A DNA stretch of 64,000 bases, taken from assembly GCF_010730355.1 (NCBI RefSeq), contig NZ_AP022576.1, positions 5,642,001-5,706,000 on the forward strand, written 5' to 3'. The stretch is from Mycobacterium florentinum (GTDB lineage: Bacteria; Actinomycetota; Actinomycetes; Mycobacteriales; Mycobacteriaceae). The translations under genes were made by a program, and so were the position numbers. Within the stretch, counting starts at the first letter, position 1. Every line of letters begins with the position of its first letter. Under the pieces are notes generated by a model that saw only the letters and a program-made list of their open reading frames with translations, made no database searches and had not been told where the DNA came from. Of this stretch, positions 8,832 through 27,311 are shown piece after piece.

Positions 8832-9084
8832 GGGCCTCGTCGGCCGGCCGCTCGACCTCGCGCTGCACCACGGCCGTCTCGTTGTCGATCTCGGCCACGG
8901 TGACAAACCCCGCGTCGGGCGAGATCGTGTTCGCGATCTTGCGCCGGCCACCTTCGATCATCGACTGAGCCATCGGACTGCTGGTCAGCGCGCGATAAGT
9001 ACCGACGAGCTGCTCGTACCGGCGTCGGCCGGCTTTCGAGCCCAGCACGTAACCCAGTCCGAGCACGACGACATATCGGATCAA
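8806..9084 (-). CDS. Small Rv2342-like protein, N-terminal membrane segment
   Basis: A 92-residue protein starting MIRYVVVLGLGYVLGSKAGR. It has a short hydrophobic N-terminus, a basic stretch (KAGRRRYEQL) and a polar C-terminal half ending in Asp/Arg. This is the organisation of Mtb Rv2342. The TTG start at 9084 is chosen because GGGAGGG lies about 6 bases upstream and homologues start there; the frame itself is open further upstream. Function unknown. It converges on and overlaps the end of dnaG. Confidence 0.75.
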   Translation of the reverse strand: MIRYVVVLGLGYVLGSKAGRRRYEQLVGTYRALTSSPMAQSMIEGGRRKIANTISPDAGFVTVAEIDNETAVVQREVERPADEALTPSDRRR

Positions 9085-9259
9085 AGCGTCCCTCCCCACG
9101 ACGGTGCGGATGGGTCCATCCTGCCTCACTCGGCTGGGTGCGTGTGCCACCGATCGGTCTAACGGGGCGCGCGCGTCCTGCCCTGAACTTGGGCGCGGGT
9201 ATGCCAGTACGCTAGAGTCGTCCAGCGATCCGCGCCAGATTTCGCGCGGGCCAGGTTAA

Positions 9260-9332
<73 letters not shown>

Positions 9333-9536
9333 CAGGCAACGGCGCATCTCCGGCACACCGGGCACATGGTGCTCACGGGCGCCGTCAACGGGGGGCTCGG
9401 CAGCGATGGTTCGAAATTTGACAGATGTACGGCGCGGTGAGCGGCTACGTCACCGTCAGTTCAGTAGCAATGCGTACGGTTTGGCCATCGCACTCGTGTG
9501 TGCCCGCACATGACGGCTGGAGGGTGGTGTCGTTCG

Positions 9537-9833
9537 GTGCCGTTGAGCGGATTGCTGACCACGTTCGACGCCGTCATTCGCGCCGGATACCCGCACGGCG
9601 TGCCGCGCGCCGACTACGTCCCGCTGCTGGCCCTGTTGCGCCGCCGCATGCCCGACGGCGCGGTGGCCGCGGTCGCCGGCCAGGTAGCGGCCGACGCCGA
9701 CCTGGACATCAATGCCGCCGATATTCGCGCGACCATCACCCGGGTCGCCGATGAACTTCCCTGCGCGGCCGATCTTGAACGCGTCCAGCGACGGCTGGCG
9801 GCGATCATCGAATTAGCCCAGCAGCCGACGTAA
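9537..9833 (+). CDS. DUF3349 domain protein
   Basis: A 98-residue protein with the DUF3349 pattern: LTTFDAVIRAGYPHGVP, then DYVPLLALLRRRM, a segment of alternating helix, and DELPCAADLERVQRRLA at the end. The family is small, all-helical and common in mycobacteria (for example Rv0543c); its function is unknown. The GTG at 9537 is preferred because GGAGGG lies at 9519-9524, although a 12-base spacing is long. An ATG at 9510 or GTG at 9498 would add a non-conserved extension. It converges on arr with 13 bases between stops. Confidence 0.75.
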   Translation: MPLSGLLTTFDAVIRAGYPHGVPRADYVPLLALLRRRMPDGAVAAVAGQVAADADLDINAADIRATITRVADELPCAADLERVQRRLAAIIELAQQPT

Positions 9834-9846
9834 TTGAGCTCAAGCG

Positions 9847-10272
9847 CTAGTCATCGATGACGGCAAGTCCTCGGCGCTTGAGGTCGGCGAGGCCGTCGCG
9901 CATGGCTTGAAGCTGCTCGGATGAATGCCCCACCCAGTCGGTGATCTCGCCGACGATTCGCACGGGCTCCCGGGTGCGGTAGGAGCGAGTCGGATTTCCG
10001 GGGAACTTCTTGTCGGTCACGTTCGGGTCGTCTTCCAGCGTGCCTTCCGGTTCCACGATGTAGATGCGGCCCCGGCCTGTTCCCTTGGACAGTTCGGCTC
10101 CCCACACCGCGGCATCCAACGTCCGCGTCACGTAGACGTGGTTGGCCAGGCGCCCTTCGCCGTAGTTCGACAGACGTCCGGGCACCAGGAGATCGCCCAC
10201 CGCGAGGTCGGACTTGGTGCCGTGCAAGAAGGCACCCGACTCGTGCACTTCGAAGGGTTTCGGCGCGCTCAT
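9847..10272 (-). CDS. arr: NAD+-rifampin ADP-ribosyltransferase
   Basis: Arr transfers ADP-ribose from NAD+ to rifamycins and so inactivates them. The 141-residue protein keeps the family core: FLHGTKSDLAVGDLL, NHVYVTR and the hallmark DPNVTDKKFPGNPTRSYR. H17, Y47 and D82 correspond to the His19/Tyr49/Asp84 set of M. smegmatis Arr, all offset by two residues, so the active site looks intact. It lies 37 bases behind cysE in the same direction and may be the last gene of a TQXA-cysK-cysE-arr unit. M. tuberculosis lacks it. It predicts intrinsic rifampicin tolerance if expressed. Confidence 0.95.
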   Translation of the reverse strand: MSAPKPFEVHESGAFLHGTKSDLAVGDLLVPGRLSNYGEGRLANHVYVTRTLDAAVWGAELSKGTGRGRIYIVEPEGTLEDDPNVTDKKFPGNPTRSYRTREPVRIVGEITDWVGHSSEQLQAMRDGLADLKRRGLAVIDD

Positions 10273-10309
10273 CGGACTGAATCGTGCGGCAAGGGCTTTC
10301 GCGACCGGA

Positions 10310-10996
10310 TCAGATGGAGAAGTCTTCGCCGTGCCAGACGCCGGCCTCGGGTGGCCGGATGACGCGGCCGGTCTGCTGGCCGGCGTCGTCCTGGGCCTCG
10401 AGTTTGGCCACCCGGGTGAGCAACTGCTGCAGGCTGACTCCCACCAGATCGGGCATCAGCGAATCGTTCGGGCTGCCGGGCTTGGCGGTGCTGATGACCT
10501 GCCCGGGTACGCCGACGACGACGGAGCCCGACGGGACCTCCTTGACCACAACGGCATTGGCGCCGATGCGGCTGTCGTCGCCGATCTTGATCGCGCCGAG
10601 CACCTTGGCCCCGGCGCCGATGACCACCCGGTCGCCGATGGTGGGGTGACGCTTGCCGGTGTCCCTGCCGCTGCCGCCGAGCGTGACGCCGTGGTAAATC
10701 GTGACGTCGTCGCCCACTTCGGCGGTTTCGCCGATCACCACGCCGCTCGCGTGGTCGATGAATAGTCCCTTGCCGAGGGTCGCACCGGGATGGATCTCGA
10801 CACCGGTCAGGATGCGGGTGAGTTCTGCGAATCCCCGTGCGGCGACCTTGGCGCCCCGGTTCCACAGCGACTGGCTGATCCGATGGCCCCAGATGGCATG
10901 CACGCCGGGATAGGCGACGATGACCTGCAGCGTCGACGGGTTGGCCGGATCACGTTCCTTGGCCGCCTGAATGTCGCGCCGAACTTCGTCGAACAC
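10310..10996 (-). CDS. cysE: Serine O-acetyltransferase
   Basis: Makes O-acetylserine from serine and acetyl-CoA, the first step of cysteine synthesis. The 228-residue protein has an N-terminal helical region and a left-handed beta helix of hexapeptide repeats (about 68-190), with the catalytic [17 protein letters not shown] segment and HPTIGD. Length matches Mtb CysE (Rv2335). The GTG start lies 2 bases after the cysK stop, so the two are co-translated. Its product is the substrate of the neighbouring CysK. Confidence 0.96.
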
Positions 10997-10998
10997 GA

Positions 10999-11931
10999 CT
11001 AGTCGCCCACGTCGTCAAAAAGCGGTGTGCTCAAATACCGTTCGCCGAAGTCGGGGAGGACAACCACGATCAGCTTCCCGGCGTTTTCGGGCCGGCGGGC
11101 GACCTGCAGCGCGGCCACCACGGCCGCACCGGAGGACACTCCGACCAGCAGTCCCTCTTCGCGAGCCAGCCGTCGCGCCAAATTGATCGAGTCGTCGTTG
11201 CCGACGGTGATGATCTCGTCGATCAGATCCACATCGAGCACCGGCGGGATGAACCCGGCGCCGATGCCCTGAATGGGGTGCGGACCCTTCTGGCCGCCGG
11301 ACAGCACCGGTGATGCGGCCGGCTCGACGGCCACGAATTGCACCGAAGGCTTGCGCTCCTTGATCACCTGGGCGACGCCGGTGATGGTGCCGCCGGTGCC
11401 GACCCCCGCCACGAAGAAGTCGATCTTGCCGTCGGTGTCGCGCCACACCTCCTCGGCGGTGGTTTTGCGGTGAATGGCAGCGTTGGCCGGGTTCTCGAAT
11501 TGCTGGGGCACGAAATACCGGTCGTCGGTTTTGGCCAGTTCTTCGGCCTTGGCAATAGCGCCCAGCATGCCTTCGGGGCCCGGGGTGAGGATGAGCTCGG
11601 CGCCCAGCGCCCGCAGCAGCTTGCGTCGCTCGATGCTCATCGTCTCCGGCATGGTGAGCACAATCCGGTAGCCCCGGGCGGCGGCGACCACAGCCAGCGC
11701 GATCCCGGTGTTCCCGCTCGTCGGCTCCAGGATGATGGTGTCCGGCTTGATCAGGCCGGCTTCCTCGCCCGCGTCGATCAGGGCTACCCCGAGGCGGTCT
11801 TTCACGCTGTTCGCCGGGTTGAAGGACTCCAGCTTGGCGACGACGTCCGCGCCGGCGCCATCGGTGACCCGGTTCAACCGGACCAGGGGGGTGTTGCCGA
11901 TCAGTTGCGTGATGTTCTCAGCGATTGTCAC
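10999..11931 (-). CDS. cysK: O-acetylserine sulfhydrylase (cysteine synthase A)
   Basis: PLP enzyme that joins O-acetylserine and sulfide to give cysteine. K44 in [11 protein letters not shown] is the Schiff-base lysine, [12 protein letters not shown] binds substrate, and [12 protein letters not shown] binds the PLP phosphate. From the GTG at 11931 the protein has 310 residues, the same as Mtb CysK1 (Rv2334), and begins [12 protein letters not shown] like it; an in-frame ATG at 11940 is possible. The start lies inside the 3' end of the TQXA gene (14-base overlap), which implies translational coupling. The C-terminal [11 protein letters not shown] resembles the Mtb enzyme. Confidence 0.95.
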
Positions 11932-13186
11932 AAACGCCATTCCAGCGAATGTCGAAGTGGATTGCAACGTCGGAGGGTACGGCGAGGGCGACCGGAGTGA
12001 ATTGCTCCGGCGCCTCGGGGGCCACTCCGGTCAGCACTCGGCCGGGCAGTCGGTACGACGTTGTGGCGGTCAACGTTGCCGTCGATGTGCCCGGCGCCGG
12101 ACGCAGGTAGAAGTCGGTGCCCGGGTGGACGGTCCCGTCGACGGCGAAACCGTCGGCGTCAACCAGCGAGTGGCCGTCGGCAACGTTGAACGTCAACGGG
12201 ATTCGCACGTGGAAAGGGCCGACCAGCTCGGGTCCGGCGGTGGCTTCCGTATCGATGAGGGTGGATTCGTCGGGCCTCTGCGGAGCCTTCAGCGCTCCGG
12301 AGAGCAGGTAGTTGTAAAGATGCACAACGCGATCGGCGTTGCGATAGTGCCGTGTACCCGTCAGCCAGAAGCCCACATGGCCGATCTTGGGCGCGGTGCC
12401 GTCCACTGTCTCGGCGATGAGCCGGTAGTAGCGGTAACCGTGTCCACGGTGGCCGTGGCTGCTGCTCGACAACGTGCTGCCTATTCCCAGCGCCCGTTCG
12501 TAGCGCCCCATGGCTGCGCTGGTGGTCAGCTGTGAACCCGAAATCTCTTGCCAATCAACACTATTGGCGGATTTCTGCAGCCGCAGATTGACGGTGCTGT
12601 CCGACGCGGTCCACACCGAGTAGCCACCGAGTTGGGGTTGGCCGTCGAATTCGAAGGTGATTTCCGGTCCGGGTCCCCGGTGCACCGCGATCGGAACGTT
12701 GAGCGGCTGCGTGTCCAGGGACAGGCCGTTGGTGAGATACCAAATCGCGGCCTGGGTAGCCGCAATGGCTTCGTGCTCCTCGAGATTGCCGGTTCCCAGC
12801 GGGTATCCGGCCGCGCGCAACCGGCGGCTCAACTCGGCGGTGGTACGCAGCGGATAGGAGTGGCGCAGAATCCAATCCACCTCCGCCTCATAGTCGCGAC
12901 TACGCAGATGCTCGAGTGCAGACCAGGTTCCCAAGCGATAGCGCGACGGCAGATGTGGCGCGATACCGGAGAAGTTCAGCGAATAGGCGTGCAGGCTGGG
13001 GTGCAAGCGGATCAGATCGGTCCGCGCGGTGCTGCCGTCACTGAACGTGATCGTGTCGACCGTGTGGGAGTAGGTGCCGCCGCGGTAGCGCGTCATCTGG
13101 GGCAGGTCCTTGGCCGGCCGGGCCATGATCCGCGGACGGGTGGTCACCTCCGCCAGTGCGCGGCTGGATATGGACAAAACGGTCAT
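11918..13186 (-). CDS. TQXA (thioester) domain protein lacking the cysteine
   Basis: A 422-residue protein whose first half has the TQXA/thioester-domain layout: [14 protein letters not shown], a central [10 protein letters not shown], and the Gln motif T144[10 protein letters not shown]. In classical surface thioester domains a Tyr-Cys near the N-terminus bonds to this Gln. Here the matching position reads Y68-S69, and the only cysteine in the protein is C419 at the end. No signal peptide, membrane helix or LPXTG motif is visible. The C-terminal part is beta-rich. It is coupled to cysK downstream and divergent from the encapsulin operon. GGGAAGAG precedes the ATG. Function unknown. Confidence 0.7.
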
Positions 13187-13549
13187 TGCTGGTTGCTCTT
13201 CCCGAAAGATTTCGACTGGGCGCGCCTCGATACGCGCGGGCGTGCGCCCGCTGGCGGGAAAAAAGCGCGACGATTAGAAAGTCAGATCTGGGTCGTCTGG
13301 AATCAACAACAGCGACAACAGTCCACGGCAAGGCAGCGCGAAGTGATGAAGCGCAGCTGTGCAGCGTGGTGCATACCTCCACTATAGGGCAATATCGCGA
13401 TCGGATTAGCTCGACCAGCAACGACCATCCTGCGGTTGAAAAAATCTCGATGAGTTTTACACTTGCCTCGGCTCAGCGTGGTGCTCTCGGTTGATGACCT
13501 GTGGCTCTACATCCGTGCTTAGGTATTCGGCAACGACGGAAGGACCAAG
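13187..13549. promoter_or_regulatory. Divergent promoter region of the encapsulin and cysteine operons
   Basis: A 363-base gap between two divergent operons, lower in GC than the genes, with no convincing ORF. It must hold promoters for the TQXA-cysK-cysE-arr unit and the encapsulin-desulfurase unit. AT-rich stretches at 13378-13400 (ACTATAGGGCAATAT) and 13437-13460 are candidate -10 regions. The encapsulin ribosome site GGAAGGA is at 13538-13544. No recognised operator was found. Confidence 0.55.
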
Positions 13550-14473
13550 ATGACGTCCGCTCAAAACGAGTCTCAGGCACTCGGGGATCTCGGCGCCAGG
13601 CAGCTAGCCAACGCGACCAAGACCGTTCCGCAGCTCTCGACCATCACCCCCCGCTGGCTGCTGCATTTGCTCAGTTTCGTGCCGGTGGAAGCCGGTATCT
13701 ACCGGGTCAACCGGGTGGTCAACCCCGAACAGGTCGCCGTGACCGCGCAGGAGGGCGCCGCCCTCGACACGCCGCTGTCGGAGACCTTCGTCGACTACGA
13801 GACCAGCCCCCGCGAATACACCCTGCGCAACATCTCCACGCTGCTGGATGTCAGCACCCGGGTGTCCGACCTCTACTCCAGCCCGCACGACCAGGTCACT
13901 CAGCAGCTGCGGCTGACCATTGAGACGATCAAAGAGCGCCAGGAATTCGAACTGATCAACAGCCCCGAGTACGGGTTGCTGGCACAGGTGACCCCGGAGC
14001 AGACGATCCAGACCCTCGGCGGCCCTCCGACCCCCGACGACCTGGACGCACTGATCACCCGGGTGTGGAAGACACCGAGCTTCTTCCTGACCCACCCGCA
14101 GGGCATCGCTGCCTTCGGTCGCGAGGCCACCTACCGCGGTGTGCCGCCCGTCGTCGTCAGCCTGTTCGGCGCACAGTTCATCACCTGGCGCGGCATCCCG
14201 CTGATCCCGTCGGACAAGGTTCCGCTGGAAGACGGCAAGACCAAGATCATCCTGGTGCGCACCGGCGAGGAGCGCCAAGGCGTCGTCGGTCTGTTCCAGC
14301 CGGGCCTGGTCGGAGAGCAGGCGCCGGGCCTGTCGGTGCGCTTCACCGGCATCAACCAGTCGGCGATCGCGCGCTACCTGGTGACCCTCTACACGTCCTT
14401 GGCGGTCCTCACCGACGACGCGCTTGCCGTGCTCGAAGACGTCGCTGTGGACCAGTTCCATGAGTACAAGTGA
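13550..14473 (+). CDS. Family 2A encapsulin shell protein (35-kDa major membrane protein I, SrpI family)
   Basis: A 307-residue HK97-fold shell protein of the SrpI/MMP-I family, which self-assembles into a protein nanocompartment. Family features include the N-terminal helix LGARQLANATKTVPQLSTITPRW (residues 12-34), PVEAGIYRVNRVV, the ETSPREYTLRNISTLLDV segment, and an E-loop/A-domain region around SLFGAQFITWRGIPLIPSDKVP. M. leprae and M. avium homologues were first described as the 35-kDa antigen. The downstream gene encodes the typical cargo, a cysteine desulfurase, overlapping by 14 bases. Known relatives encapsulate the desulfurase, and elemental sulfur storage has been reported for family 2A systems. 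Confidence 0.95.
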   Translation: MTSAQNESQALGDLGARQLANATKTVPQLSTITPRWLLHLLSFVPVEAGIYRVNRVVNPEQVAVTAQEGAALDTPLSETFVDYETSPREYTLRNISTLLDVSTRVSDLYSSPHDQVTQQLRLTIETIKERQEFELINSPEYGLLAQVTPEQTIQTLGGPPTPDDLDALITRVWKTPSFFLTHPQGIAAFGREATYRGVPPVVVSLFGAQFITWRGIPLIPSDKVPLEDGKTKIILVRTGEERQGVVGLFQPGLVGEQAPGLSVRFTGINQSAIARYLVTLYTSLAVLTDDALAVLEDVAVDQFHEYK

Positions 14474-16379
14474 GTACCGGTCGGTAGACGCCGAAAGCGA
14501 TCTGCCCCTGGGCGCCGCGGAGATCGCGGCACTGGCCAATCAGCTGTACGCGGCCAGCTTCCGCCCGGGTCCGGACAGCCCACCGCAATCGGCACCGGTC
14601 GCCCCTCGGGGCAGCGTGCCGGACACGACGGCGGCGGCCTCGGCCGGGCAGACCGCGGCGGGCAGCACCGATTTGTACTCGGCGCCGGTTCCGCTCCTCG
14701 GTATCACCGACATCTATGTCCCGGCTCCGACGTCGCCGGAGCCCGAACCGCCCCCGCAGACGGTGCCGGTCGCCCCGCGCGGCAATGTGCCGGACACGTC
14801 GGCGGCGCCGTCGGGCGCACATGCGGTCGGCAGCGTTGCCGACCCGTACCTGCCGCCGGCCGACTTCAGCGCGTTCGAGGTCCCGACCTCGGGCATCGTT
14901 CCGACGGTGCCCGGTGTGCTGGCCGGTCCTTCGAATGTCGCAGCACCGCCGAGCACTCCGGTGGCGCCGCGGGGTTCGGCTCCGTACTCGGGCATCGGGT
15001 GGCATCCCGACGCGCCGTCCGTCGGCGACCTCGGCTGGTCGGATGCGGTGCCCGCCGCCCCGGCCGCGCTGAGTGCGCCTTCCGATAGCGAGTACAGCTA
15101 CCACTTCCTGACCGCGTCTGATCCGGTACCGCAATTGACCGACGACCACGAGGTGTTCGACGTCAACGCGATCCGCGAGGACTTTCCGATCCTCAAGGAG
15201 ACGGTCAACGGAAAGCCGCTGATCTGGTTCGACAACGCCGCGACCACCCAGAAGCCGCAGGTGGTGATCGATCGGCTGTCGTACTTCTACGCGCACGAGA
15301 ACTCCAACATTCACCGGGCGGCGCACGAGCTGGCGGCGCGGGCCACGGATGCCTACGAGGAAGCCCGCGAGACCGTGCGTCGATTCATCGGCGCCGAGAA
15401 GGCCGAGCAGAACATCTTCGTGCGCGGCACCACCGAGGCCATCAACCTGGTGGCCTACGCGTGGGGCGGTAAGCACTTGGGCCCGGGCGATGAGATTGTC
15501 ATCACCCACCTGGAGCACCACGCCAATATCGTTCCGTGGCAACTGCTTTCGCAGCAAACCGGAGCAATCCTGAAGGTTGCGCCGGTCGACGAGGCGGGCA
15601 ACCTGTTGCTGTCGGAGTTCGAGGATCTGCTGGGGCCGAAGACGAAGTTGGTGGCGGCAACCCAGGTTTCGAACGCGCTGGGGACGGTGACGCCGGTCGA
15701 GAAGATCGTTCAGCTGGGTCACCGCTACGGCGCGCGAGTGCTGATCGACGGCGCTCAGTCGATTCCGCACCTGCCCATTGACGTCGCCGAACTCGGTGTC
15801 GACTTCTTCGCGTTCTCCGGACACAAGATCTACGGCCCCACCGGAATCGGCGTGCTGTACGGCTCCGAGGAGGCGCTGGCCGAGACGCCACCCTGGCAGG
15901 GCGGCGGCAACATGATCGCCGACGTCACCCTGGAACGCTCGCTGTACCAAGGACTTCCCAACAAGTTCGAGGCCGGCACCGGCAACATCGCCGATGCCGT
16001 CGGGTTGGGCGAGGCCCTGCGTTACGTCGAGCGGGTGGGCATCGAGCGCATTGCTGCCTACGAGCATGCGCTGCTGGACTATGCGACGCCGCGCCTGGCC
16101 GACATCCCCGGTGTTCGCCTGGTGGGCACCGCGCAGGAGAAGGCCAGCGTGCTGTCCTTCGTGCTGGCCGGCCACGAGCCTCTCGAGGTCGGCAAGGCGC
16201 TCAACTCCGAAGGGATCGCGGTGCGGGCCGGACACCACTGTGCCCAACCGATTCTGCGCCGGTACGGCCTGGAGGCCACTGTCCGTCCGTCGTTCGCCTT
16301 CTACAACACGTTCGAGGAGATCGACGTGCTCCTCCAGGCGGTACGCCGGATCGCCGAGGGTGGCACGAACGTCGGCTAG
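14460..16379 (+). CDS. Encapsulin cargo cysteine desulfurase (SufS-like) with disordered leader
   Basis: A 639-residue PLP enzyme that takes sulfur from cysteine, leaving alanine. The catalytic part (about 232-639) is SufS/CsdA-like, with K456 in FSGHKIYGP as the PLP lysine and C594 in GHHCAQP as the persulfide cysteine. The first 230 residues are Pro/Ala-rich and unstructured and carry three PVAPRG repeats (46-51, 103-108, 167-172) after a helix-like PLGAAEIAALANQLYAASF. Such leaders load the enzyme into family 2A encapsulins. The ATG at 14460 begins MSTSEYRS and lies within the shell gene end, so translation is coupled. Upstream in-frame codons belong to the overlap. Confidence 0.94.
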   Translation: MSTSEYRSVDAESDLPLGAAEIAALANQLYAASFRPGPDSPPQSAPVAPRGSVPDTTAAASAGQTAAGSTDLYSAPVPLLGITDIYVPAPTSPEPEPPPQTVPVAPRGNVPDTSAAPSGAHAVGSVADPYLPPADFSAFEVPTSGIVPTVPGVLAGPSNVAAPPSTPVAPRGSAPYSGIGWHPDAPSVGDLGWSDAVPAAPAALSAPSDSEYSYHFLTASDPVPQLTDDHEVFDVNAIREDFPILKETVNGKPLIWFDNAATTQKPQVVIDRLSYFYAHENSNIHRAAHELAARATDAYEEARETVRRFIGAEKAEQNIFVRGTTEAINLVAYAWGGKHLGPGDEIVITHLEHHANIVPWQLLSQQTGAILKVAPVDEAGNLLLSEFEDLLGPKTKLVAATQVSNALGTVTPVEKIVQLGHRYGARVLIDGAQSIPHLPIDVAELGVDFFAFSGHKIYGPTGIGVLYGSEEALAETPPWQGGGNMIADVTLERSLYQGLPNKFEAGTGNIADAVGLGEALRYVERVGIERIAAYEHALLDYATPRLADIPGVRLVGTAQEKASVLSFVLAGHEPLEVGKALNSEGIAVRAGHHCAQPILRRYGLEATVRPSFAFYNTFEEIDVLLQAVRRIAEGGTNVG

Positions 16380-16419
16380 CGTGCCGCGAGCATGGCTTTG
16401 ACTGTGCGGTCAGGGATTT

Positions 16420-16494
16420 GAGTGTGCGCCCACGGTGGCGGCGGTCGGCGTGTCGTCGCCCCCACCGCACACTCATTGCCAAGGGCGCACACTC
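16420..16494. repeat. Palindromic GAGTGTGC element after the desulfurase gene
   Basis: GAGTGTGCGCCC (16420-16431) recurs as a perfect inverted copy GGGCGCACACTC (16483-16494). A third, shorter inverted copy GCACACTC lies at 16467-16474. CGGTGG/CCACCG inside the shorter pair extends a stem. It begins 41 bases after the stop, so it may terminate the encapsulin operon, or be a REP-like intergenic element. Confidence 0.6.
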
Positions 16495-16991
16495 GGGGTG
16501 GACGCTAACCGCGCCGCCGGCGCGTTAATTGACGTCATTCTGAACGAAACTGTTGCTTTCGACTTCAGTTTTCCGGACTGTGACGTGCAATCAACCGTGC
16601 ATCCTCGAGTGGGTTCCGACGTGGTGGAAAGAGATTCGCGCGGTGCCGGCGAACGGTCTTTTGTCGACTTCTGCAACCGCCGACATGACGTAGCCATTCC
16701 ACGCATCCCGGCGCGTTGGCCGGCCCGCCGCGCCCCACCCTGACGGGCGAGACATCTTCTTCATGCTGCCCGGCCAGCACGTTCGGTACGAATGTCGGGC
16801 GAACGTTCTTGCGGCCGCCCAGATTTCTTCTGGTTGATTGCAACCCTGACGCCGGGCATCGTTTTGTCCGTAAATTTCTGCGATGTTCTATGTGTGCAAA
16901 CAGGCGGCGCGGTCCACGTGTAAACGATGCTGACCTCTTATGGGTCGGCGAGTTACGCACGGGTAAAAGTGATTACGAATTGGGGGATCAC
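16495..16991. other. Intergenic region upstream of the mce operon
   Basis: About 500 bases without a convincing gene. The open frames that cross it have no recognisable homology or mycobacterial codon bias. AT-richer blocks at 16525-16590 and 16855-16900 (for example TTTTGTCCGTAAATTTCTG) are likely promoter territory for the yrbE-mce operon. No operator was recognised. Confidence 0.4.
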
Positions 16992-17033
16992 ATGAGCCGA
17001 ATGGACCGTCGGCGGTCTGGGCAGGTTTTATGA
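16992..17033 (+). CDS. Candidate 13-residue leader peptide coupled to yrbEA
   Basis: ATG at 16992 follows GGGGG by five bases (a good ribosome site) and opens a 13-codon frame, MSRMDRRRSGQVL. Its TGA overlaps the ATG of yrbEA (TTATGA). yrbEA itself has no clear ribosome site of its own outside this frame. The arrangement suggests translation of the operon is primed through this mini-gene. It could instead be the true start region of a longer transcript with no product function. Confidence 0.4.
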   Translation: MSRMDRRRSGQVL

Positions 17034-17797
17034 ACGGCACCGCCATCGCACGGCCCATGAACGCGCTTGGCGAATTCTTTATGCTCAGCGCCGAAGCGCT
17101 GGTGACTGCGCTGCGCCGGCCGTGGGCCTGGCGCGAGATCCTCGAGCAGATCTGGTTTGTTGCCCGGGTGTCGATCTTCCCGACCATCATGCTGTCGATT
17201 CCGTACACCGTGCTGATCGTGTTCGTGCTCAACATCCTGCTCGTGGAAATCGGCGCCGGGGACCTGTCCGGTGCCGGGGCCGGGCTGGCGTCGGTGACCC
17301 AGGTCGGCCCGGTGGTCACTGCGATGGTCGTCTCGGGCGCCGGGTCGACCGCCATGTGCGCGGACCTCGGCGCGCGCACCATCCGCGAAGAAATCGACGC
17401 GATGAAGGTGATCGGGGTCAATCCCATTCAGGCGCTGGTGGTTCCGCGCATCATCGCCGCCACCTTCGTCGCGGTCCTGCTGTACTCGGTGGTCGCTGTC
17501 ACCGGGCTGACCGGCAGCTACATCTTCGTGGTGTTCGTCCAGCACGTCACACCCGGCGCCTTCATCGCGGGCATGACACTGGTCACCGGGCTTCCGCAGG
17601 TTGTGATCTCGCTGATTAAGGCGACGTTGTTCGGGTTATCCGCGGGCTTGATCGCCTGCTACAAGGGACTTTCGGTGGGCGGCGGCCCCACCGGCGTCGG
17701 TAACGCGGTGAACGAGACCGTGGTCTTCTCGTTCATGGCCCTATTCTTCATCAACATCGTGACCACCGCGCTCGGAGTGAAAGTGACTGCCAAATGA
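17030..17797 (+). CDS. yrbEA: Mce transporter permease YrbEA
   Basis: A 255-residue MlaE/YrbE-type permease, one of two integral membrane subunits of an Mce lipid importer. An amphipathic N-terminus is followed by hydrophobic segments at about 40-65, 80-105, 140-175, 185-205 and 230-252. The EEIDAMKVIGVNPI cytoplasmic loop that contacts the ATPase (MceG/MlaF-like) is present. The stop overlaps the yrbEB start (ATGA). The ATPase itself is not in this operon, as usual for mce loci, where a shared MceG works in trans. Confidence 0.95.
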   Translation: MNGTAIARPMNALGEFFMLSAEALVTALRRPWAWREILEQIWFVARVSIFPTIMLSIPYTVLIVFVLNILLVEIGAGDLSGAGAGLASVTQVGPVVTAMVVSGAGSTAMCADLGARTIREEIDAMKVIGVNPIQALVVPRIIAATFVAVLLYSVVAVTGLTGSYIFVVFVQHVTPGAFIAGMTLVTGLPQVVISLIKATLFGLSAGLIACYKGLSVGGGPTGVGNAVNETVVFSFMALFFINIVTTALGVKVTAK

Positions 17798-18642
17798 CCG
17801 ATCTCGCGCGCGGTCCGTCGTGGCTGGACACTCTGGGCCCCAGGCTGGTGGCATCCACCCGCAAGCTGGGGGAACAGACCGAGTTCTACGGAAAATCGCT
17901 GGCCGCCACCGTGGACGCGGTACGGCGCTACCCGAACGAACTGCTGCGCCTGATCGCCGAGATGGGAATGGGCACAGGCGCTTTGGCGGTGATCGGGGGC
18001 ACCGTCGGCATCATCGGCTTCTTGACCCTGACGACCGGCGCTCTCGTCGCGGTGCAGGGATACGACACGCTGTCCAACATCGGAGTGGAAGCACTGACCG
18101 GCTTCCTGTCGGCGTTCCTGAACGTCCGGATGATCGCGCCCTGCACGGCCGGGCTGGCATTGGCGGCCACGATCGGTGCCGGTGCGACGGCGCAGCTGGG
18201 TGCGATGCGCATCAACGAGGAGATCGACGCCCTGGAAGTCATGGGCATCCGGTCGATCACCTACCTGGCATCCACGCGAATTATTGCCGGCGTCCTGGTC
18301 GTCATCCCGCTCTACGCCGTCGCGGTCCTGATGTCGTTCATCGCGGCCAAGTTCCTCACGATCTACGCGTACGGCCAGTCCCGGGGCGTCTACGAGCACT
18401 ACTTCTCCACCTTCCTGCGCCCGAGCGACCTGATGTGGTCGTTTCTGTCGGCGCTGACGATGGCGACGGGTGTGATGGTCGTGCACACCTATTACGGCTT
18501 CACCGCGACAGGTGGTCCCGCCGGTGTGGGGGAGGCCGTCGGTCGCTCAGTGCGGTCATCGATGATCGTCACGGCGTTTGTGTGCCTGATGATTTCGCTG
18601 TCCGTCTATGGGCAGTCCGGCAACTTCAACTTGTCGGGGTAA
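17794..18642 (+). CDS. yrbEB: Mce transporter permease YrbEB
   Basis: A 282-residue second permease subunit of the same importer. The coupling loop reads NEEIDALEVMGIRSI, matching the YrbEA loop. About five hydrophobic segments are spread over residues 65-275. It begins at an ATGA overlap with yrbEA and is followed 4 bases later by mceA. The substrate is presumably a lipid or sterol, as for characterised Mce systems; the sequence does not say which. Confidence 0.95.
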   Translation: MTDLARGPSWLDTLGPRLVASTRKLGEQTEFYGKSLAATVDAVRRYPNELLRLIAEMGMGTGALAVIGGTVGIIGFLTLTTGALVAVQGYDTLSNIGVEALTGFLSAFLNVRMIAPCTAGLALAATIGAGATAQLGAMRINEEIDALEVMGIRSITYLASTRIIAGVLVVIPLYAVAVLMSFIAAKFLTIYAYGQSRGVYEHYFSTFLRPSDLMWSFLSALTMATGVMVVHTYYGFTATGGPAGVGEAVGRSVRSSMIVTAFVCLMISLSVYGQSGNFNLSG

Positions 18643-18646
18643 CCAT

Positions 18647-19915
18647 ATGAGCAACCACAGGGACAGCGGACCGGCACGACGAAACAGAGTCCGCAGCAGC
18701 AGGATTGATCCGATCTGGTGGGCACCGATCTTGTTCATCCTGGTCGCGGGCCTGATCGCGGTGACCGCCGGGGCGTTCTCGGGCAAGTTCGCGGACTTCA
18801 TCCCGCTGACGCTGGTGTCGGACCGGGCCGGATTGGTGATGGAGCCGGGCGCCAAGGTGAAGTTGCGCGGGGTTCCGGTGGGTACGGTCGCGTCGATCGG
18901 CACCGACGTGAAAGCGGCTCAGCTGCAACTGAAGATGGACCCGGGCCCGTTCAAGTATCTGCCGAGCAACCTCGAGGCCGAGATCAAGTCGACCACCGCG
19001 TTCGGATCCAAGTACGTCGACCTGGTCGTGCCTGACCATGCCAGCCCCACACCGTTGAAGCCGGGTGCGGTGCTGCATTCGCGCAATGTCACCGTCGAGG
19101 TCAATACAGTTTTCGAGAACCTGCAGTCCGTCGTCCAGGCGCTCGACCCGGCGAAGCTGAATGCCATCTTGTCGGCTTTCGCCCAATCGGTGCGCGGTAA
19201 GGGCGATCGCCTCGGCCAGTCGGTCACCGATGCGAACAGTCTGCTGCTGACCGTCAACCCGCGCATGGACACCATCCACCGGGACTGGCGGCTGTTCGGG
19301 AAGACCACGGCCATCTATTCCGATGCGGCGCAGGACATCCTGTCGATCCTCGACTCGGCCTCGACCACCAGCGCCGCGCTCACCGAAAACGACCGGTCCT
19401 TCGATTCGCTGCTGTTGTCGGCGATCGGCTTCAGCCAGACCGGTATCAGCGTCATCGGCAGAAACGAACCCAACATCGTGCAGTCGATGAAGCTGCTCGA
19501 CCCGACGTTGACGCTGCTGAACAAGTACTCGCCGACCTATACCTGCCTGTTCCAGGGTGCGCAATGGTACGTCGACCATGGGGGCAGGGACATGCTCGGT
19601 GGCAACGGCTACTCGTTCATCATGGACGCGGCCCTGCTGTTCGGTGATGACCCCTACCGCTACCCGAAACACCTGCCGAAGATCAACGCAACGGGGGGGC
19701 CGGGTGGTAAGCCCAGCTGCGGTTCACTGCCCGACCCGAGCGCGAATTACCCGGTGCGCCAGCTAGTTACCGACACTGGTTGGGGGACCGCTCCGAACGA
19801 GATTCGCAGCAATGTGGCCGCCGGCAATCCATGGTGGGGCAACTGGTTCCCGACCACCAAGAATGCTCCCGAACCGCCACGCTACTTCTGGCGCGGGGGG
19901 CAGCCGCCGCCATGA
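18647..19915 (+). CDS. mceA: Mce family protein MceA
   Basis: A 422-residue substrate-binding/tunnel subunit. A basic N-terminus and one transmembrane helix (about 22-42) are followed by the MCE/MlaD domain (about 50-135, with GLVMEPGAKVKLRGVPVG) and a long helical region that assembles the periplasmic needle. The C-terminal third has Trp/Pro-rich segments (WWGNWFPTTKNAPEPP). ATG at 18647 lies 4 bases after the yrbEB stop. The operon number (mce3-like or mce5-like) is not assigned because numbering among non-tuberculous species is inconsistent. Confidence 0.94.
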   Translation: MSNHRDSGPARRNRVRSSRIDPIWWAPILFILVAGLIAVTAGAFSGKFADFIPLTLVSDRAGLVMEPGAKVKLRGVPVGTVASIGTDVKAAQLQLKMDPGPFKYLPSNLEAEIKSTTAFGSKYVDLVVPDHASPTPLKPGAVLHSRNVTVEVNTVFENLQSVVQALDPAKLNAILSAFAQSVRGKGDRLGQSVTDANSLLLTVNPRMDTIHRDWRLFGKTTAIYSDAAQDILSILDSASTTSAALTENDRSFDSLLLSAIGFSQTGISVIGRNEPNIVQSMKLLDPTLTLLNKYSPTYTCLFQGAQWYVDHGGRDMLGGNGYSFIMDAALLFGDDPYRYPKHLPKINATGGPGGKPSCGSLPDPSANYPVRQLVTDTGWGTAPNEIRSNVAAGNPWWGNWFPTTKNAPEPPRYFWRGGQPPP

Positions 19916-20940
19916 GACGCAAACTTTCGAGCATCATCGCGCGGGTCGCGATTTTCACCCTGGTGTGCCTGCTCTTCACCTTTACGTTGGTCGCCGTGTT
20001 CGGGCAGCTGCGCTTCGAGGACCGCACCGACTACCAAGCGGTCTTCACGAACATCTCCGGCCTGAAATCCGGCAACTTCGTTCGTATCGCCGGGGTGGAG
20101 GTCGGCAAGGTGGGCGACCTCGAATTGCATCGCGACGGCACAGTCACCGTCGGCTTCGAAATCGACAAGGCGATACGGCTCACCGAGGGCACCAAGGCGG
20201 TGGTGCGGTACGAAAACCTGATCGGTGACCGGTATCTCGCGCTCGAAGAGGCCCCCGGGCCGCCGCGCCGGCTACCGGCGGGCGCCACAATTCCGCTGGC
20301 GCGAACATCACCCGCCCTCGATATCGACGCGCTCATCGGGGGATTCCGCCCGCTGTTCCGGGCGCTGGATCCCGATCAGGTCAACGCACTGTCGGGTCAG
20401 TTGCTGCGAATCTTCCAGGGGCAGGGCGGCACGCTCGCCTCGGTGCTGTCGCAGACGTCGATACTGACCTCGACGCTGGCCGGGCGCAGCGAGTTGATCG
20501 GTGAGCTGATCACCAACCTGAACACCGTGCTGCACACCTTCGCCGCGCGCGACCATGAGTTCTCCGACGGGTTGGACAAACTCGCCCAGCTGGTGGAGGG
20601 GCTGGCGCAGCGCAAGGACGACATCTCCACCGGGCTGGCCTACATCAACGCCGCCGCCGGCTCGGTCGCCGATCTGCTTGTCCAGGCCCGCCAGCCGATC
20701 AAGGACGTGGTGCACGAGACCGACCGCATGTCCGGGCAAATCCTCGCCGACCGCGACTATGTCGACAAACTGCTCAAGGATCTCCCGGACGTCTATCAAG
20801 TGCTGTCCAGGCAAGGCCTGACCGGCGACTACTTCGGCTTTTACTTCTGCGAAGTCTTACTCAAGGTCAATGGCAAAGGGGGTAACCCGATCTTCGTCAA
20901 ACTGTTGGGACAGCCCAGCGGGCGGTGCACGCCTCGATGA
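19912..20940 (+). CDS. mceB: Mce family protein MceB
   Basis: A 342-residue Mce subunit. An N-terminal helix (RVAIFTLVCLLFTFTLVAVF) is followed by the MCE domain with FTNISGLKSGNFVRIAGVEVG and a helical needle domain. The ATG at 19912 forms an ATGA overlap with mceA. The C-terminus ends with the FGFYFCEVLLKVNGKGG region typical of MceB. No lipobox. Confidence 0.94.
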   Translation: MRRKLSSIIARVAIFTLVCLLFTFTLVAVFGQLRFEDRTDYQAVFTNISGLKSGNFVRIAGVEVGKVGDLELHRDGTVTVGFEIDKAIRLTEGTKAVVRYENLIGDRYLALEEAPGPPRRLPAGATIPLARTSPALDIDALIGGFRPLFRALDPDQVNALSGQLLRIFQGQGGTLASVLSQTSILTSTLAGRSELIGELITNLNTVLHTFAARDHEFSDGLDKLAQLVEGLAQRKDDISTGLAYINAAAGSVADLLVQARQPIKDVVHETDRMSGQILADRDYVDKLLKDLPDVYQVLSRQGLTGDYFGFYFCEVLLKVNGKGGNPIFVKLLGQPSGRCTPR

Positions 20941-22121
20941 AGTTGAAGCCGCCCAAGATCAAGCCACTCGGTCACCGGAGCCCCTTCATGCTGGGCGTAA
21001 TGGGCACCGCGATCTTGACGTGTGTGACCATCGTCGCCTTCCAGTACAACAAGCTGCCCTTTGTGAAGAACACGGACGACTACGCCGCGTATTTCTCCGA
21101 GGCCGGTGGCATCAAACCCGGTAACACGGTGCGGGTTTCGGGGATGGGAGTCGGCAGGGTCTCCGATATCCGGCTCGAGGGGACCAAGGTCCGGGTCGGC
21201 TTCACCGTTCGCCAGGGCATCGAATTGGGCGACCGCACCGAGGCGGCGATCAAGACCGAAACGATCCTGGGCTCCAAGATGCTGGAGCTCACGCCGCGTG
21301 GGGAAGGGCGATTGTCGGGCCCCATTCCGCTGGCACGTACCCACTCGCCTTATGACCTTCCCGACGCGCTGGGCGACCTGACTACCACCATCAGCGGCCT
21401 CGATACCGCCCAATTATCTTCGGCTCTCACGACATTGGCGACTACATTCAAGGAGACACCGCCGAACCTGAGGCCCGCTTTGGAGGGCGTTGCGCGGTTC
21501 TCGGACACCCTCAATAACCGCGACGCGCAGCTGCGGAGCCTGCTGGGCAATGCCAACAAGGTGTCGACGGTGCTGGGCAAGCGTAGCCAGCAGATTGCCG
21601 GCCTGGTGGCCAACTCCAACGCGCTGTTGGCCGCCCTGCTCGACGAACGAGATTCACTCGATGCGCTGATGAACAACCTCACCGCGGTGTCGCATCAGAT
21701 CTCCGGGCTGGTCGACGACAACAGAACCCAACTCAAGCCGGCCCTCGACAAGCTCAACGGCGTGCTCGAAATCCTGGACAACCGAAAGGAAGACATCCAG
21801 AAGACCCTGCCCAAGTTCAAGCGGTATGCGATGTCGTTTGGCGAAGTGTTAGGTTCTGGGCCATTTTTCAAGGCTTACGTGGCCAACCTGGTGCCCGGCC
21901 AGATCGGTGGGCCGGTCCTCGACGCGGATATGTACGACAGGTTCCTGGATCCCAACCAAAAGCTCCCCTCGGAGGCGGTCGATCCGCCGACCGGATCTCC
22001 ACCGGTCCCGCCGGAGAACGCGCCGGTCCCGATCTGGTCTCAGCCGCCCTCACCGCCGCCCTCGACGCCACCGGTGCGGACCATCCCGCCGCCGTCACCC
22101 CATGACTTCGACGGGCCATGA
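20937..22121 (+). CDS. mceC: Mce family protein MceC
   Basis: A 394-residue Mce subunit. Residues about 15-35 (FMLGVMGTAILTCVTIVAF) form the membrane anchor. The MCE domain (FSEAGGIKPGNTVRVSGMGVG) and a helical region follow. The last 60 residues are Pro-rich (PPVPPENAPVP, PPSPPPSTPP), as in other MceC proteins. ATG at 20937 overlaps the mceB stop (ATGA); an upstream in-frame GTG at 20925 is less likely. Confidence 0.94.
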   Translation: MKLKPPKIKPLGHRSPFMLGVMGTAILTCVTIVAFQYNKLPFVKNTDDYAAYFSEAGGIKPGNTVRVSGMGVGRVSDIRLEGTKVRVGFTVRQGIELGDRTEAAIKTETILGSKMLELTPRGEGRLSGPIPLARTHSPYDLPDALGDLTTTISGLDTAQLSSALTTLATTFKETPPNLRPALEGVARFSDTLNNRDAQLRSLLGNANKVSTVLGKRSQQIAGLVANSNALLAALLDERDSLDALMNNLTAVSHQISGLVDDNRTQLKPALDKLNGVLEILDNRKEDIQKTLPKFKRYAMSFGEVLGSGPFFKAYVANLVPGQIGGPVLDADMYDRFLDPNQKLPSEAVDPPTGSPPVPPENAPVPIWSQPPSPPPSTPPVRTIPPPSPHDFDGP

Positions 22122-26721: not shown

Positions 26722-27311
26722 CGACACTTCACGACGACATCGAGACCGACGCTCCCGACCAGGAGATCGCCGAGGAGACAACAGAATCGGTCGAGGCAAC
26801 CGAACCGGGCGAGGAGAAGGCCCGGCGGATCCCGTGGACGCGGGTGCTTGCCTACGGCGTGTTGCCGGCGATCGCGTTGCTGCTGGCGCTGGGGGCCGGC
26901 TACTTTCGATGGGTCGTCGGCTCCGCCGATGAGCTGACACAGGCGGGCACCGAATCCGTCCGGGCGGCAGGCGAAGACGCGGCGGCCCTGCTGTCGTACC
27001 GGGCGGACTCGGCCGACAGGGACCTCGGCGCGGCCCGTGAGCGGCTGACCGGCGAGTTCAAGGACGCCTACACCGCACTGATCCACGAGGTGGTGATCCC
27101 GGGCGCGAAAGAAAAGCACATCTCGTCGGTGGCCAAAGTGACCGCGGCATCCTCGGTTTCGGCAACCGCCAACCATGCGGTAGCCCTGCTGTACGTCAAC
27201 CAGACGGTGACCATCGGCGACGGCGCTCCCACCGACACCCAGCCCGTCATCAAGGTGACGCTGGACAAGGTCAACGGCCGATGGCTGGTTTCGCGCTTCG
27301 ACCCGGTGTGA
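26718..27311 (+). CDS. Second Mce-associated membrane protein
   Basis: A 197-residue paralogue of the preceding protein with the same plan: an acidic N-terminus (DIETDAPDQEIAEE), basic residues, a helix (VLAYGVLPAIALLLALGAGYF) and a periplasmic domain (LLSYRADSADRDLGAARERLTG). The ATG at 26718 makes an ATGA overlap with the upstream gene. It probably works with the first Mce-associated protein as a pair. Confidence 0.88.
   Translation: MTTLHDDIETDAPDQEIAEETTESVEATEPGEEKARRIPWTRVLAYGVLPAIALLLALGAGYFRWVVGSADELTQAGTESVRAAGEDAAALLSYRADSADRDLGAARERLTGEFKDAYTALIHEVVIPGAKEKHISSVAKVTAASSVSATANHAVALLYVNQTVTIGDGAPTDTQPVIKVTLDKVNGRWLVSRFDPV

Follow-up and report, generated by a model that had tools for sequence, protein, structure and literature searches.

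The divergent locus analysed here raises the question of which neighbour its TQXA-domain gene belongs with: the encapsulin operon on one side, or the cysteine synthesis genes on the other. In the window, that is, the whole 64-kb stretch of Mycobacterium florentinum DNA analysed, two operons diverge. The forward strand carries a family 2A encapsulin shell protein of the SrpI family (13550..14473; NF041162, 492.7 bits, cut-off 380) and a cysteine desulfurase cargo with a long N-terminal extension (14460..16379; NF041166, 845.4 bits, cut-off 800). The reverse strand carries a TQXA-domain protein of 422 residues (11918..13186; TIGR03934, 56.1 bits, cut-off 30.4; Pfam TED, 39.1, cut-off 22), cysK, encoding cysteine synthase A with a GTG start (10999..11931; TIGR01139, 470.7 bits, cut-off 350.95), and cysE, encoding serine O-acetyltransferase (10310..10996; TIGR01172, 240.7 bits, cut-off 210.65). 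The genes and the divergent layout described in an earlier note on this DNA are all present, each gene above its model cut-off. The exception concerns the place of the rifampin ADP-ribosyltransferase gene arr (reverse strand; NF000318, 253 bits, cut-off 250), which the note had put within 11918..16379 and which lies at 10272-9847 (9847..10272). Its proposed membership of the system was rejected as well: arr is a local neighbour, present in 4 of the 80 related loci compared (some with short flanks).

The desulfurase ORF is listed from TTG 14424, but its likely start is ATG 14460; its extension contains three PVAPRG repeats in the window (read by eye), and the aminotransferase class-V domain starts at residue 267 of the listed ORF. 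The shell and desulfurase genes overlap by 14 nt in the window and likewise in 54 of 75 relatives, counted from the first possible start. A shell with an adjacent desulfurase bearing an N-terminal extension is, judged by its genes alone, a family 2A desulfurase encapsulin. It resembles SrpI/CyD of Synechococcus elongatus in its shell and cargo, which match the family models above cut-off, and in the long N-terminal extension of the cargo, and differs from it in that the cys genes are divergent and stand behind a poly-cysteine leader.

Across 346 mycobacterial genomes searched at E <= 1e-20, a shell match is found in 118, and TQXA is found in 118 of these 118; eight genomes have TQXA only, as remnants or frameshifted copies in six of them, and 220 have neither. 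The surveyed genomes are related to one another, and the association is given as counts, without a p value. Shells score above the family cut-off in 115 of the 118, and the three below it are in two frames (G362), split over contigs (G538) or a fragment with a stop (G386). TQXA is divergent from the shell at less than 1 kb in 120 of 123 shell rows, a count made without the additional TQXA pieces of G373 and G386; the three other rows are G477 (divergent, 1.86 kb), the second copy in G381 and the G538 fragment on another contig. Similarly, a shell match is the divergent neighbour of TQXA in 79 of the 80 named loci (partial in L138, L155, L179 and L191), and the contig of the 80th ends 333 bp upstream. 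Five TQXA rows were flagged for an internal stop: in three of them it falls at residue 415-416, which is the protein end, and the other two show no stop on re-examination. TQXA is the sole TIGR03934 match in the genome of the window. In a class-wide search (345 genomes, E <= 1e-8), full-length TQXA relatives are confined to the genus of the window (seven of nine matching genomes), and the matches in the remaining two cover one part of TQXA only. The conserved TQXA neighbour that the earlier note had proposed to seek in encapsulin genomes is therefore found in mycobacteria, at a position that is not random, and is absent beside both other family 2A shells found in the wider order.

Those two non-mycobacterial loci, together with the second shell and cargo copy of G381, which has neither TQXA nor leader, indicate that shell and cargo can exist without TQXA. 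Conversely, M. genavense (L155), G512 and G386 have an open TQXA next to a shell gene that is broken or cut, and another TQXA role, or recent shell losses, are therefore possible. In G386, the reading that TQXA is broken together with its shell was rejected; its reading frame is open across an in-frame gap of 25 residues. TQXA is under constraint (dN/dS 0.145-0.227 in eight of nine pairs, 0.42 for M. leprae/M. lepromatosis), and in 9 of 9 pairs its evolution outpaces that of shell and cargo. Gene comparison establishes the shell, rather than cysK, as the constant partner of TQXA, and TQXA is very probably a partner of the shell system.

Upstream of TQXA, a short ORF ending in a Cys run (13303..13374, reverse strand; peptide MHHAAQLRFITSRCLAVDCCRCC), to which the earlier note makes no reference, is present in the window and in 80 of 80 related loci, also at those without a following cysK; the other strand of this stretch, taken for comparison, has a poly-cysteine ORF in 2 of 80. 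The motif TGYTGYTGYTGYTGYTGA, with at most two mismatches, occurs once in the window versus 0.01 expected. A -10-like element, TATAGT (13381..13386, reverse strand), lies at a spacing that would allow a leaderless start at the leader ATG, and it is invariant across 17 aligned sequences. TAnnnT stands at -12 or -13 in the 20 of 80 relatives listed and at most 16 nt from the leader start in 80 of 80, where the start was chosen partly by the same motif. In 17 of the 80 loci the next gene after TQXA is a convergent glycosyl hydrolase; the leader is present in these too, so that it serves TQXA alone there. An Rfam scan of 9000-17000 gave one tRNA and nothing else.

Poly-cysteine leaderless short ORFs of M. 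smegmatis reportedly act as attenuators (Canestrari 2020). Shared with them are the -10-like box just before the ORF, the terminal run of Cys codons and, in many species here, sulfur genes downstream; unlike them, the present leader serves TQXA alone in 17 of 80 loci, and its cysteine response is putative. Poly-Cys leaders are described upstream of mycobacterial cys operons, with MAP2122/ML0840 within those operons, in a passage of PMC1262725, and cysteine-responsive poly-Cys short ORFs of M. smegmatis in passages of PMC9094748 and PMC9031893. By this published precedent, the leader is a putative cysteine-responsive attenuator, and expression of the TQXA arm probably responds to cysteine.

The ribosome-binding stretch of TQXA (13187..13206, reverse strand) is predicted to pair with the poly-cysteine codons in the minimum-energy fold. 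The pairing test covered 57 of 81 leaders, namely those whose TQXA match runs from residue 1 with a start codon. In the predicted folds, at least 8 of the 20 nt of this stretch are paired with the Cys tract in 48 of 57 leaders, against 21% after shuffling of the ribosome-binding stretch and 51% after shuffling of the tract. The pairing is absent in nine of the 57, M. lepromatosis among them, and the window leader folds no better than its shuffles (z -0.85). This shuffled-control count replaced a comparison of ribosome-binding-site openness that had no control (31 of 57 more open, 3 less).

The TQXA protein is predicted to adopt the class II thioester-domain (TED) fold with a discoidin-like insert (model mb8dc3508a5ef, pLDDT 78.2). 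The discoidin/CBM32-like domain is inserted in the TED at about codons 161-279 (12350..12706, reverse strand), and a variable arginine-rich arm of about 30 residues precedes the conserved fold at the N-terminus. Confidence in the model is low (pLDDT about 50-63) in the region of the lost Cys site, around residues 61-100. Its two best Foldseek matches are unrelated carbohydrate enzymes and were rejected for high rmsd; the TQXA profile, run against PDB sequences, gave nothing significant (best E 0.24). Databases label the protein TQXA or thioester domain-containing.

Residue patterns were compared in 200 TQXA proteins, comprising those of the 80 loci and the 120 listed from 1021 matches, with species overlap between the two sets. 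In this set, the bond-forming Cys ([YFL]C) is replaced by Ser in 199 of 200 by pattern, and the one unmatched protein, P0118, reads AYSLDF and thus has Ser too (200 of 200). The C-terminal segment x-[FLYHC]-T-P is present in 200 of 200, and Gln occupies the aligner-matched bond column in 14 of these 200, the window included, in a register uncertain by 1-2 residues. In the same 200 proteins, no LPxTG-like motif is found in the last 60 residues, and the hydropathy scan shows neither a hydrophobic N-terminus (first-60-residue hydropathy at most 1.43) nor a strongly hydrophobic segment (highest 15-residue hydropathy 2.16). The Gln of the TQXA motif was rejected as the bond-forming residue, since a passage of PMC6194298 puts the bond-forming Gln elsewhere, and replacement of the thioester by a Ser-Gln ester was rejected because the second site has no conserved Gln. 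Compared with the class II bacterial thioester domains BaTIE and EfmTIE86, as described in that part of PMC6194298, TQXA has Ser for the bond-forming Cys, no conserved bond-forming Gln and no anchor motif, and it carries an insert of about 120 residues. By its sequence, TQXA would not be a functional Cys-Gln thioester protein, since the Cys is replaced, the Gln is not conserved, and neither anchor motif nor hydrophobic N-terminus is found. The name TQXA suggests a thioester surface protein, which these features do not bear out, and "thioester" is a misleading label for this family.

These losses bear directly on the reading of TQXA as an ordinary secreted thioester adhesin that is here by chance: the Pfam TED and TIGR03934 scores above cut-off and the database names speak for it, but the substituted Cys, the unconserved Gln, the missing anchor and the low N-terminal hydropathy make it extremely improbable. 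Discoidin-like domains often bind sugars or membranes, and the insert would also suit a protein that ties shells to the cell envelope; the shell protein is the "major membrane protein I" of M. avium wall/membrane fractions. However, TQXA has no strongly hydrophobic segment, and the M. avium membrane fraction was pelleted at 100,000 g, a force at which intact shells should come down as well; we regard such tethering as improbable. A second cargo or internal shell scaffold, loaded next to the desulfurase, would agree with the strict association of TQXA with the shell gene and with the arginine-rich arm. Against this, TQXA lies on the other strand with its own leader and -10-like box, it is the desulfurase gene that overlaps the shell gene, and TQXA shows none of the desulfurase's PVAPRG repeats (read by eye), so that a cargo role is unlikely, if less so than tethering.

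The remaining alternative is that TQXA serves cysteine synthesis, as a partner or regulator of CysK/CysE, and adjoins the shell only through the shared intergenic region. TQXA and cysK have the leader in common, and in the window the end of TQXA (stop 11920-11918) and the beginning of cysK (likely start GTG 11931) share 14 nt, in line with the earlier remark that the two genes share translation. Stop and start overlap in 21 of the 45 related loci in which cysK directly follows TQXA, and six more abut. As a conserved feature, however, this coupling falls away: cysK does not follow TQXA in 35 of 80 loci, and in 18 of 80 the next gene is neither cysK nor the convergent hydrolase. Moreover, TQXA outlives the loss of these genes. 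TQXA, shell and cargo are open both in M. lepromatosis, where cysK and cysE are interrupted by stops and lie in two frames, and in M. lepraemurium, which has a cut cysK and in which no cysE was found. Conversely, four shell-less genomes (G504, G551, G608 and G417) have TQXA remnants only beside full-length cysK and cysE matches, with the leader in three, and G373, with a remnant of the shell and its TQXA frameshifted, likewise has full-length cysK and cysE matches. A role in cysteine synthesis is disfavoured and, in our view, very unlikely.

We propose instead that TQXA is a cytosolic accessory protein dedicated to the family 2A (cysteine desulfurase) encapsulin of mycobacteria and produced under cysteine scarcity. 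It would have arisen from a secreted Cys-Gln thioester protein through loss of the signal peptide, the anchor and the thioester and acquisition of the discoidin-like domain. The poly-cysteine leader ORF would set TQXA synthesis. When cysteine is plentiful, ribosomes would run off the leader, and the poly-Cys codons could pair with and hide the TQXA ribosome-binding site. When cysteine is scarce, ribosomes would stall in the Cys tract, the site would be freed, and TQXA would be made, in many species together with CysK and CysE. The target of TQXA would then be the assembled shell, and its action would end the withholding of cysteine-derived sulfur, either because the shell is opened to reductant or because further cysteine consumption is stopped, and CysK/CysE would rebuild cysteine where they are on the same transcript as TQXA. 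The cycle suggested in the earlier note, with one arm drawing sulfur from cysteine and the other remaking cysteine, fits this arrangement, the TQXA arm having its leader in every related locus.

For the cytosolic place, the cysteine response, the contact with the shell and the direction of effect, we infer from the features above. The explanation as a whole, a cytosolic encapsulin accessory under poly-Cys leader control that acts on the shell, stands at about even chances, and direct action on the shell is just as finely balanced. It is rather doubtful that TQXA opens or mobilises the shell instead of closing or tethering it. Equally tentative is the picture of a dead extracellular thioester protein turned into a cytosolic, starvation-induced gatekeeper, in which the shell fills in plenty and TQXA unlocks or shuts it on stalling. 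To our knowledge, such a gatekeeper would be the first dedicated encapsulin regulator protein under ribosome-sensed control. The desulfurase encapsulin of Acinetobacter is reported to store sulfur. In S. elongatus, according to PMC8049743, sulfur starvation raises the level of the shell itself, which is not simply reconciled with a store that fills in times of plenty alone.

What family 2A encapsulins do in cells is not settled, and a near-obligate third component, behind a leader of its own that probably senses cysteine, gives a direct handle on this, offering a condition (cysteine limitation), a gene to remove and an assay (shell sulfur content). The analysis suggests that TQXA is an overlooked, starvation-controlled part of the mycobacterial sulfur store, and that an adhesin-type fold has been repurposed inside the cell. 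Published family 2A accessory genes include serine O-acetyltransferase (PMC8346489), and the words "thioester" and "TQXA" each occur 0 times in PMC8346489 and PMC8049743 ("thioester" counted in the main texts). Literature searches, with subscription papers mostly outside their reach, found no TQXA-encapsulin link in print. The mycobacterial shell is a major antigen (35-kDa/MMP-I) known since the 1990s, and a passage of PMC8049743 equates the family 2A shell with this 35-kDa antigen, or major membrane protein I. MAP2122/ML0840 was recorded in 2005 as an additional hypothetical gene within the cys operon and was then said to lack other reliable homologues, in a passage of PMC1262725 that does not mention the shell gene. 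The shell gene of M. avium subsp. paratuberculosis is given as MAP2121c in part of PMC8049743. By place, that is, by position next to MAP2121c rather than by sequence match, MAP2122/ML0840 is the TQXA gene of M. avium subsp. paratuberculosis and M. leprae.

The locus is composed of two operons that diverge from the intergenic stretch 13187-13549, on a chromosome of 6.2 Mb. The right operon (+ strand) encodes a family 2A encapsulin (the shell, 13550..14473) and then the cysteine desulfurase cargo (14460..16379), whose likely start lies 14 nt inside the 3' end of the shell gene. The left operon (- strand) contains TQXA (11918..13186), a protein with the thioester-domain fold whose thioester residues are lost, followed by cysK (10999..11931), with a likely GTG start 14 nt inside the 3' end of TQXA, cysE (10310..10996) and, farther along, arr. 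The presence of these genes in one locus, as described in the earlier note, stands. Among the named species, the closest TQXA protein is that of M. montefiorense (83%), followed by that of M. sherrisii (78%), within the loci listed, from which records near the window were possibly left out. By eye, a motif close to PVAPRG recurs three times in the desulfurase extension (14460-15000), and these near-repeats may bind the shell.

In separate searches of 346 mycobacterial genomes (E <= 1e-20), 126 genomes gave a TQXA match and 118 a shell match, the latter above the family cut-off in 115; TQXA was present in all 118 genomes with a shell match, and neither gene in 220. TQXA is divergent and less than 1 kb from the shell in 120 of 123 shell rows, a comparison from which one genome was removed. 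Eight genomes have TQXA only: it is reduced to fragments in G356, G417, G504, G551 and G608, frameshifted in G373, located at a contig end in G459, and complete in G512, where it adjoins a shell cut at codon 35. No shell above the cut-off was found without TQXA among the 346 genomes, except for an extra copy in G381; this second shell and desulfurase copy (L202, G381:C1:1369000-1383000) lacks both TQXA and the poly-cysteine leader described below, and the first shell copy of the same genome has both. In an order-wide sample of 298 genomes, TQXA and the shell occur together in 12, all mycobacteria, and for the two other genomes of that sample with a shell above the cut-off (G030 and G080), both non-mycobacterial, TQXA was not matched at E <= 0.001. 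The same mycobacteria-only pattern was seen in 345 genomes sampled across the class. Therefore, the association is strict, yet limited to mycobacteria as far as sampled, and the survey of encapsulin genomes proposed earlier gives a clear positive within this group. No TQXA-encapsulin link in print was found in the literature searched.

TQXA had previously been read as coupled to cysK. Among 80 loci related to that of the window, a shell match (four partial) is next to TQXA in 79, and the contig of the 80th ends too soon. cysK directly follows TQXA in 45 of the 80, mostly in species known as slow growers, M. leprae among them. The reading of the locus thus moves from cysK to the shell as the partner of TQXA, with a leader in front of TQXA that probably senses cysteine. 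The next gene after TQXA is a convergent GH15-type glycosyl hydrolase in 17 loci, and neither this nor cysK in the remaining 18. In the locus L164 (11303-17860), genes for a sulfate ABC transporter (CysT, CysW, the ATPase and the substrate-binding protein) lie beyond the hydrolase. Relatives of the transporter genes are found in 16-18 of the 80 loci, and the range is 16-19 with the hydrolase gene included. In L162, L187 and L189, cysK and cysE are located on the strand of the shell, downstream of the desulfurase, and not behind TQXA.

The leader is a short ORF with a terminal run of Cys codons upstream of TQXA, located at 13374-13303 (-) in the window and present in all 80 relatives; when the other strand of these stretches was read as a control, 2 of 80 gave an ORF of this type. 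A TAnnnT box lies at most 16 nt before the leader start in 80 of 80 loci (position -12 or -13 among the 20 loci listed), a count that is not independent because the box helped choose among leader starts; this placement would be expected for a leaderless transcript. Poly-Cys leader peptides upstream of mycobacterial cys operons are described in a 2005 paper (PMC1262725), and cysteine-responsive attenuation by poly-Cys ORFs in M. smegmatis is attributed to Canestrari et al. (2020) in PMC9094748 and PMC9031893. For 48 of 57 leaders, folding predicts pairing between the Cys codons and the ribosome-binding stretch (RBS) of TQXA; shuffling the RBS lowered this to 21% and shuffling the tract to 51%, a difference that is suggestive but no proof. 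In the M. smegmatis system, stalled ribosomes reportedly block structures that hide the RBS. What is new here is that the leader is retained at TQXA loci without a following cysK, and TQXA itself would therefore belong to the cysteine response.

Natural losses separate the two gene sets. In M. lepromatosis, cysK and cysE carry stops and are split over two frames, and TQXA, shell and cargo are open; in M. lepraemurium, cysK is cut, the same three genes are open, and no cysE match was found. In G504, G551, G608 and G417, the shell is absent, TQXA is a remnant, cysK and cysE are retained, and the leader persists in three of the four; G504 also keeps a leftover piece matching the cargo end. Because the remnant begins at residue 304-305 in both G504 and G551 and elsewhere in G608 and G417, these genomes represent at least three loss events. 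G373 has a shell remnant together with its frameshifted TQXA. Broken or cut shells stand beside an open TQXA in M. genavense (L155), G512 (L193) and G386 (L200, with an in-frame gap of 25 residues in TQXA); therefore, TQXA can outlast the shell, which may reflect either recent shell loss or a shell-independent role. The dN/dS of TQXA is 0.145-0.227 in eight of nine pairs and 0.42 for M. leprae/M. lepromatosis, and TQXA is thus under purifying selection, weaker than that on shell and cargo.

A role of TQXA in cysteine synthesis only is disfavoured by this loss series, as TQXA is kept where cysK and cysE are broken and is a remnant where they stay and the shell is gone. In the mechanism that we propose, the desulfurase in the shell takes sulfur from cysteine; in work on an Acinetobacter homologue, shells of this kind reportedly store elemental sulfur. 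The divergent TQXA arm would be switched on in cysteine shortage. Taken together, this points to an action of TQXA on the shell under such shortage, either opening it for reduction and reuse of stored sulfur or halting further cysteine loss, with CysE and CysK rebuilding cysteine where they share a transcript with TQXA. That TQXA touches the shell, and in which direction it acts, are what we infer. With lower probability, TQXA is instead a second cargo or, less probably still, a tether of shells to the envelope. For the shell protein MAV2054, the wall and membrane fractions in PMC5129020 were pellets spun down at 27,000 g and 100,000 g, and sedimentation of whole shells at these speeds may partly account for its label as a 'membrane protein'.

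The rifampin ADP-ribosyltransferase gene arr (9847-10272) lies directly behind cysE. It is a local neighbour, because it is present in only 4 of the 80 relatives, at variable distance; it is also beside cysE in L199 (G373). On the other side of the locus, a run of YrbE/Mce-looking ORFs, recognized by eye at 17030-22121, begins approximately 650 bp past the cargo gene.
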